Position numbers and translations under genes: made by a program. From Clostridia bacterium (GTDB taxonomy: Bacteria > Bacillota > Clostridia > Christensenellales > UBA1242), in NCBI GenBank assembly GCA_017453125.1, contig JAFTKS010000010.1, forward strand, positions 1 through 64,000: a stretch of DNA of 64,000 nucleotides. Reading direction: 5' to 3'. Shown here one piece after another: positions 4,305-25,938 of this stretch (its first letter is position 1; the number at the start of each line of letters is the position of its first letter). The notes under the pieces were generated by a model that saw nothing but the letters and a program-made list of their open reading frames with translations, was not told where the DNA came from and did not search any database.

Positions 4305-4333
4305 TTGACATTAATTGCGATATCGTTTAAAAT
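4305..4333 (+). promoter_or_regulatory. tRNA-Arg promoter
   Basis: TTGACA at 4305-4310, a 17-nt spacer, TAAAAT at 4328-4333. It ends 21 bases before the tRNA. Confidence 0.8.
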
Positions 4334-4354: not shown

Positions 4355-4431
4355 GCACTGTTAGCTCAATTGGATAGAGCGTTGGTCTACGGAACCAAAG
4401 GTTAGGGGTTCGACTCCCTTACGGTGCACCA
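4355..4431 (+). tRNA. tRNA-Arg (anticodon ACG)
   Basis: A complete cloverleaf of 77 nt: acceptor stem GCACTGT/ACGGTGC, D arm GCTC/GAGC, anticodon stem TTGGT/ACCAA with loop CTACGGA (anticodon ACG, read as ICG, decoding CGN), T arm AGGGG-TTCGACT-CCCTT. CCA is encoded at 4429-4431. It has its own promoter and a terminator at 4446-4473. The 3' part, from the T-loop through the terminator, is repeated 175 bp downstream (4586-4652). Confidence 0.97.
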
Positions 4432-4445
4432 ATCAAGTATAATAC

Positions 4446-4473
4446 GAACCCAAGTTTTTAGGGTTCTTTTTTT
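4446..4473 (+). terminator. tRNA-Arg terminator (first copy)
   Basis: Stem GAACCC/GGGTTC, 9-nt loop, seven Ts. Its near-copy lies at 4621-4648. Confidence 0.85.
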
Positions 4474-4477
4474 ATTT

Positions 4478-4606
4478 AAGGGAGTCCGGCTTCGCCGTTC
4501 AAGACAATCTCTTGTCTTGAGAACCCCTAACAAGTTAGGGAAGGTATTCGGGACCCCTACCCGAAGATTGACGCTTCGCTTAATGCGACTCCCTTACGGT
4601 GCACCA
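4478..4606 (+). repeat. tRNA-linked multi-hairpin element carrying a tRNA-Arg 3'-end copy
   Basis: This noncoding block lies between two copies of the tRNA-Arg terminator. AAGGGAGTC at 4478-4486 is the antisense of the T-arm 3' strand and pairs with GACTCCCTT at 4587-4595, which continues into a perfect copy of the acceptor 3' strand plus CCA (4596-4606). Inside are consecutive hairpins: 4487-4497 with a TTCG-type loop, 4499-4520 (TCAAGACAA/TTGTCTTGA), 4525-4540 (CCCTAAC/GTTAGGG, both strands matching T-arm sequence) and 4547-4565 (TTCGGG/CCCGAA). The whole is an antisense T-arm followed by a sense T-arm, each interrupted by hairpins. A comparable block follows tRNA-Ser at 25721-25801. Function unknown. 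Confidence 0.8.
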
Positions 4607-4652
4607 ATCAAATATAATATGAGCCCAAATTTTTGGGTTCTTTTTTTATTTT
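4586..4652 (+). repeat. direct repeat of tRNA-Arg 3' end plus terminator
   Basis: This block repeats 4411-4477 with only four substitutions, all transitions, and one single-base deletion. It covers the T-loop end, acceptor 3' strand, CCA, the following A/T stretch and the terminator. The terminator stem is kept as GAGCCC/GGGTTC (one G-T pair). A duplicated tRNA 3' end resembles attL/attR flanks of an integrated element, but the enclosed segment is only about 110 bp. Confidence 0.85.
4621..4648 (+). terminator. second copy of the tRNA-Arg terminator
   Basis: GAGCCC/GGGTTC stem followed by seven Ts; it closes the hairpin element. Bases 4653-4800 after it are A/T-rich and show no gene. Confidence 0.75.
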
Positions 4653-25580: not shown

Positions 25581-25720
25581 CAAAATTTAACAAATATGGA
25601 GAATACTTATTACCGAATAAAAAAACAAAACCTGATGTATTGAAAAAACAATTTCCACCATATTCTCAAAGTTCACTATGATAAAACCCTAGACAGACAA
25701 AGTGTGCAAAATTTGTGACA

Positions 25721-25801
25721 GAGTCGGAGAGATTCGGAGCCGAGCAAAGCGAACGCCCTCGTATAAAAATACGAGTACACTGAAAGAGTGAGAATCTCTC
25801 C
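25721..25801 (-). repeat. tRNA-linked multi-hairpin element carrying a tRNA-Ser 3'-end copy
   Basis: In tRNA-sense (minus) orientation, GGAGAGATTC, the antisense of the tRNA-Ser T-arm 3' strand, begins just after the tRNA terminator (25792-25801). It pairs with GAATCTCTCC at 25726-25735, which continues into CGACTC of the acceptor. The 16 nt at 25721-25736 are identical to tRNA positions 25853-25868. Between the arms are hairpins at 25778-25790 (CACT/AGTG) and 25758-25775 (CTCGTAT/ATACGAG) and a GC-rich segment with TTCGCTTTGC. The plan equals that of the element after tRNA-Arg. The copy ends degenerate (CTGTCACA in place of CCGCCA). Confidence 0.75.
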
Positions 25802-25847: not shown

Positions 25848-25938
25848 TGGCGGAGTCGGAGAGATTCGAACTCTCGTGCCGATTACTCGACAAACGCATT
25901 TCGAGTGCGTCCCGGTACGACCACTTCGGTACGACTCC
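25848..25938 (-). tRNA. tRNA-Ser (anticodon CGA)
   Basis: 91 nt, class II. Acceptor GGAGTCG/CGACTCC, anticodon stem ACGCA/TGCGT with loop CTCGAAA (anticodon CGA, codon UCG), a long variable arm (TGTCGA/TCGGCA) diagnostic of serine, T arm GAGAG-TTCGAAT-CTCTC, discriminator G and encoded CCA (25848-25850). Confidence 0.97.

Follow-up and report, generated by a model that had tools for sequence, protein, structure and literature searches.

Probable tRNA-linked repeats tailored to their own tRNA genes in a Clostridia bacterium

We analyzed a window of 64,000 nucleotides of Clostridia bacterium DNA (the whole stretch presented above) and found that the unit downstream of its tRNA-Arg(ACG) gene is very probably a tRNA-linked repeat (TLR) by the published positional definition, with the plan of the Escherichia coli lysQ/lysV and tyrT repeats and a different hairpin module. 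We read the unit, with middling confidence, as a DNA-level repeat made by tRNA duplication plus a hairpin module rather than as a dedicated RNA; the strongest competing reading is an RNA role. TLRs are more than a peculiarity of E. coli: in this gut-type Clostridia bacterium, roughly one tRNA gene in three has its own. Their presence in a small-genome genus without Hfq and CsrA makes the general phenomenon separable from the E. coli rRNA-operon case, and the units follow testable building rules (a T-loop joint, a tailored antisense, a shared module, and a copied terminator). They also carry a warning for annotation, since a copy of a tRNA 3' end need not be an integration scar.

Architecture of the unit after tRNA-Arg(ACG)

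The tRNA-Arg(ACG) gene (4355 to 4431; ARAGORN; Rfam RF00005, 65 bits) follows a promoter-like site, TTGACA-17-TAAAAT (4305 to 4333), that agrees with 11 of 12 consensus bases and is a consensus match only. These features and all those of the unit are on the forward strand. The tRNA's own terminator, read from the sequence as GAACCC...GGGTTC plus a T-run (4446 to 4476), recurs at 4621 to 4652, so that the unit (4478 to 4652) is located between two terminators. A consensus scan of the unit found no promoter-like site inside it. The unit begins immediately 3' of the first terminator's T-run with AAGGGAGTC (4478 to 4486), the antisense of the T-stem 3' strand, which is predicted to form the outer closing stem P1 with GACTCCCTT. 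Insert A (4487 to 4520) sits at the T-loop of this antisense copy and consists of two perfect hairpins, CGGC-ttc-GCCG and TCAAGACAA-tctc-TTGTCTTGA. The antisense of the T-stem 5' strand, GAACCCCTAAC, then occupies 4521 to 4531 and contributes positions 4525 to 4531 to hairpin P2 with GTTAGGG (4534 to 4540), the sense T-stem 5' strand. Insert B, or module B (4541 to 4585), is a 45-nt genus-specific hairpin module at the T-loop of the sense copy with the layout GTA[N]TCGGG...CCCGA[N']..ATTGACGC..GCTTAATG. It is followed by a perfect 21/21-nt copy of the tRNA 3' end, from C56 to CCA (4586 to 4606), and by the copied tRNA trailer with the second terminator (4607 to 4652; stem 4621 to 4640). The 3'-end copy plus terminator constitutes a 67-nt direct repeat with 85% identity.

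The antisense T-arm, hairpins, 3'-end copy, and second terminator described in the initial annotation are thus all present, and we agree that the element is tailored, noncoding, and multi-hairpin. Its picture of an inverted T-arm pair around hairpins holds in that both arms are present, but each copy is interrupted at the T-loop, and the arms do not simply flank the hairpins. An ordinary integrase scar, which the annotation had also discounted, is insufficient to explain the unit: the inverted T-arm is present and a coding element is absent.

Compared with dinucleotide shuffles, the block folds strongly both as RNA (z −4.9) and as DNA (4476 to 4594; z −4.2). The predicted single-strand fold has a closing stem and several hairpins, and in it the antisense arm pairs with the unit's own sense copy. 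This fold bears on the proposal that the unit is a tRNA decoy, an antisense regulator, or a maturation or charging sensor of the cognate tRNA. The antisense T-arm does match the cognate tRNA, but it would already be occupied, the 3'-end copy has neither the acceptor 5' strand nor an intact T-arm, and many tRNAs have no unit. We found nothing in support of the decoy and charging sensor suggested earlier and regard this group of roles as very improbable.

Units cut to their own tRNA recur in the genome and its relatives

The tRNA-Ser(CGA) gene (25848 to 25938, reverse strand) has a second unit (25716 to 25801, reverse strand) with an antisense T-arm (25785 to 25801), hairpins, and an imperfect 19/21-nt 3'-end copy (25716 to 25736). 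This copy, which the initial annotation had mentioned, is real but degenerate, and a second terminator is not clearly recognizable. Units cut to their own tRNA accompany 12 of the 35 tRNAs of this genome by a partial-copy score whose cutoff is attained by about 1% of mismatched tRNA/flank pairs. The tRNAs with downstream units were operon ends in all listings for this genome. Tandem units occur at Gly, Ile, Lys, Met, and Leu, and a single unit occurs at Arg.

The suggested search of related genomes found the block in relatives. Genomes from other genera of the family (G019, G021, and G022) have downstream units, as does G037 from another family; G051, also from another family, has weaker ones with different starts, and none were found in G036. 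In most cases, the downstream copy begins at C56, 21 nt before the end of the CCA, a fixed joint seen in tRNAs for Tyr, Ile, Gly, Arg, Met, Leu, Ser, Asn, Trp, Val, Thr, and Lys across several genera and two families. From species to species, the sense copy changes along with the acceptor sequence of its own tRNA. Among 27 units, 18 had an antisense that fit its own tRNA better than other tRNAs at p<0.05 (combined p 6e-18, with related units among the 27 not independent). The units contained 62 hairpins, nearly all of them Watson-Crick, versus 6.2 in mononucleotide shuffles. These genomes are MAGs, one per species, in which arrays often break contigs, and several of the counts include related sequences. 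Some arrays in relatives stop at contig ends or contain runs of N, as might be expected of an assembly misjoin of two tRNA copies. However, the same anatomy occurs at many tRNAs in independent genomes and on complete E. coli chromosomes, and a misjoin cannot create the antisense and module sequence of the unit. We give this explanation, raised in the initial annotation against its own proposal, practically no chance.

Module B is shared between different tRNAs of the genus

A looser pattern for the second half of module B gave 23 matches in 13 genomes of the genus, 22 of them where the module joins a tRNA 3'-end copy, and the module is common to different tRNAs within the genus. The sole match in the genus without a tRNA 3' end after it (L209; G004:C16:8422-8446) looks like chance. 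The strict module pattern matched only the window in an order-wide scan because the module varies. Matches in a GTDB contig scan came mainly from rumen "Clostridiales" MAGs (SIG384, SIG393, and SIG395) and one rabbit-gut type MAG, at tRNAs, the animal sources being taken from isolate names. The base position of the first stem was paired in 15 of 15 segments (T-A in 4, G-C in 5, and C-G in 6). We counted these pairs in hand-made segments, as MAFFT misaligned the variable loops; the segments were picked by eye, and a permutation count gives no clean probability. The covarying pairs show structure that is selected or maintained, and an RNA role fits them equally well.

The unit shares its plan with the TLRs of E. 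coli

TLRs are a repeat type of E. coli that has been on record since 1978. The family name covers 22 repeats at ten loci in E. coli K-12 (PMC8144298). Each has 18 to 19 bp of identity to the 3' end of the upstream gene and lies in a tRNA or rRNA operon, with one to five copies per locus, and TLRs are given as having no known function (PMC8144298). The window unit has 21/21 nt of 3'-end identity together with the operon location and a copy number in that range. The initial annotation had missed this known class (E. coli TLRs/RtT). We found nothing on TLRs outside Enterobacteriales in the open-access papers searched.

The lysQ/lysV TLRs resemble the window unit step by step, with an intrinsic terminator, an antisense T-arm (GATTCGAACCTGC), the sense T-stem 5' strand (GCAGGTT), GC-rich T-loop hairpins, the T-stem 3' strand to CCA, and a second terminator copy. 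They differ in the start of the copy, which lies 18 rather than 21 nt from the end, and in their module (ACGGCCCGAAGGGCGAGCGAAGCGAGTC), which is unrelated to module B. A common module is found in the E. coli arg, lys, and rrnB repeats; this E. coli-type module, CGTTGC..GCAACGGCCCGAAGGGCGAG, is not in the window unit, where module B is a different sequence. In the lysT operon of NC_000913 (L233), the spacers of lysT, lysW, lysY, and lysZ are short TLRs in which the T-arm supplies a closing stem of just five bases, which indicates that a long antisense T-arm is optional. The 178-bp tyrT repeats, or RtT (RF00391), are likewise tandem and variable in copy number, with an antisense T-arm, a split sense T-arm, T-loop hairpins, and the tRNA 3' end; unlike the window unit, they have no intrinsic-terminator pair and are transcribed inside the operon. 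Rfam RF00391 gave no match above its gathering threshold in the window or at the tRNA-Gly and tRNA-Met arrays L018 and L034, versus four matches in the E. coli control. The unit does not qualify as RtT by Rfam, and it has an unrelated module; going by these sequences, the plan that it has in common with the E. coli TLRs could have arisen twice.

A structured small RNA is the main rival reading

The rRNA-operon TLRs rrA, rrB, and rrF also lie between two terminators and end in a 3'-end copy of the upstream RNA gene. All three are transcribed and processed, and their RNAs bind both Hfq and CsrA in vitro; the rrB TLR is a processed RNA of 173 nt (PMC8144298). By this example, the window unit would give rise to a structured small RNA when transcription reads through the tRNA terminator and stops at the second one, with the 3'-end copy acting as a processing signal and closing stem. 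The flanking terminators around a unit without a promoter of its own, the strong fold, and the covarying module B stems are consistent with such an RNA. In contrast to the window unit, rrA, rrB, and rrF follow 5S rRNA, and the two proteins that they bind, the sole reported partners, are absent here: neither the Hfq nor the CsrA family was found in any of nine genomes of the genus. The partners reported from E. coli therefore cannot account for these units, and even in E. coli the tRNA-operon TLRs were rated unlikely CsrA binders (PMC8144298). The hairpin sequences, moreover, vary between species at the same tRNA, and G-U pairs are not in excess over A-C in the hairpins. We consider the small RNA reading rather unlikely.

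No enzyme accounts for a mobile cassette

Several features would suit a cassette-like element that targets the tRNA gene and is mobilized by a site-specific recombinase working on tRNA arms. As with integrative elements, tRNA 3'-end direct repeats surround the unit and the tRNA is restored; the joints fall in the T-loop or anticodon loop, and units form arrays. The antisense lies on the sense T-arm in a strand-specific foldback, and the folded strand might rebuild a T-arm duplex as integron attC sites rebuild the core site. We find the cassette improbable. Unlike integrative elements and attC sites, the unit has no coding element and no recombinase, and its antisense is tailored per tRNA. We saw no transfer of a unit to another tRNA. 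The genome holds no suitable enzyme, only two PF00589 proteins (a Xer-like recombinase beside lexA and one integrase) and one ordinary IS200 transposase. The PF00589 proteins scored at best 51.6 as an integron integrase against a cutoff of 265. The single Y1 enzyme belongs to the IS200 type (145.6 bits; RAYT model, 36.6 against a cutoff of 80), and it is missing in G004, G005, and G006, which carry module B. We identified no recombinase or transposase in the genus genomes that would serve all carriers. The earlier suggestion of a mini mobile element holds in a weak sense only: units vary in presence and copy number in E. coli, but no mobilizing enzyme was identified.

REP/REPIN elements with RAYT are, like the unit, short, hairpin-rich, noncoding, and multicopy, whereas the unit is tied to tRNA loops. 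We rejected an IS200/REP origin, as the one IS200 transposase is missing in several carriers. We likewise rejected phage carriage; a pattern scan of IMG/VR contigs gave one unrelated match, due to chance. The Xer-like tyrosine recombinase (L107:1441-2496; G000:C8:64658-65197) is the only such enzyme present in most genomes of the genus. It adjoins lexA and miaA and has an in-frame TAA here that is absent from the intact copies in relatives, either a sequencing error or a real loss. The 464-aa tyrosine integrase (L108; G000:C12:117625-118176) lies about 1 kb from tRNA-Arg(CCT) and is likely part of an integrated element.

A DNA-level repeat is the preferred reading

In the preferred reading as a DNA-level repeat, template switching at the palindromic T-arm would have partially duplicated the tRNA gene's 3' portion, one piece being inverted, and a hairpin module would have been joined at the T-loop. 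The unit would carry its own tRNA end and terminator and leave an intact tRNA gene in front, so that it would be tolerated. Recombination between the tRNA-end/terminator direct repeats could then expand or contract the array, and the module may have been copied between tRNA loci. The unit would have no dedicated RNA function. The observations that favor this reading include the direct repeats, the tandem arrays, the constant C56 joint, the antisense cut to each tRNA, the module common to several tRNAs of the genus, the mostly Watson-Crick hairpins, and the lack of Hfq and CsrA. Interior mismatches in the units were GT 6 and AC 6, versus GT 5 and AC 0 in the adjacent terminators, a nonsignificant difference (Fisher p 0.10) in the direction expected of palindromes of DNA rather than of sense-strand RNA. 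In an earlier version of this comparison, the tRNA positive control failed. Against the DNA-level reading, template switching alone leaves the module and the joint at a single nucleotide unexplained, and the covarying stems of module B and the processed rRNA-operon TLRs of E. coli count against it too.

RtT matches were present in 4655 of 5426 E. coli genomes, at 1 to 9 places each. Strain MS 16-3 has both tRNA-Tyr genes intact and cleanly lacks the units between them (about 178 bp) and after them (about 175 bp). This absence and the change in unit number are consistent with units being lost or gained when tRNA-end repeats recombine. Eighteen RtT-like places in the E. coli genomes were on plasmids.

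Mirror units lie upstream of some tRNA genes

At the tRNA-Arg genes of G020, G022, G030, and G032, the copy is located upstream of the gene. These mirror units consist of the promoter region and tRNA positions 1 to 42 (partly split), an insert that frequently begins TGCTCG or TGCTTG, and the antisense of t37 to t49. They have no CCA end, which further weakens the small RNA reading, and a 3'-processing role would not account for them. We found no earlier description of the mirror form in the open-access papers searched. Tentatively, TLRs may be one case of a general class of bacterial tRNA-arm repeats in which T-loop-joint 3'-end units and undescribed upstream mirrors with an anticodon-loop joint are made by a common activity that links hairpin modules to tRNA loops.

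Partial copies lie on both sides of tRNA-Ser(TGA) at L041, the upstream one being the 5' end with an antisense D-arm and the downstream one the anticodon-to-variable-arm part. At L034:832-930, Rfam RF02896 (Staphylococcus sRNA 774) matched above threshold upstream of and overlapping a tRNA-Met gene, and this family may be a tRNA-flank artifact.
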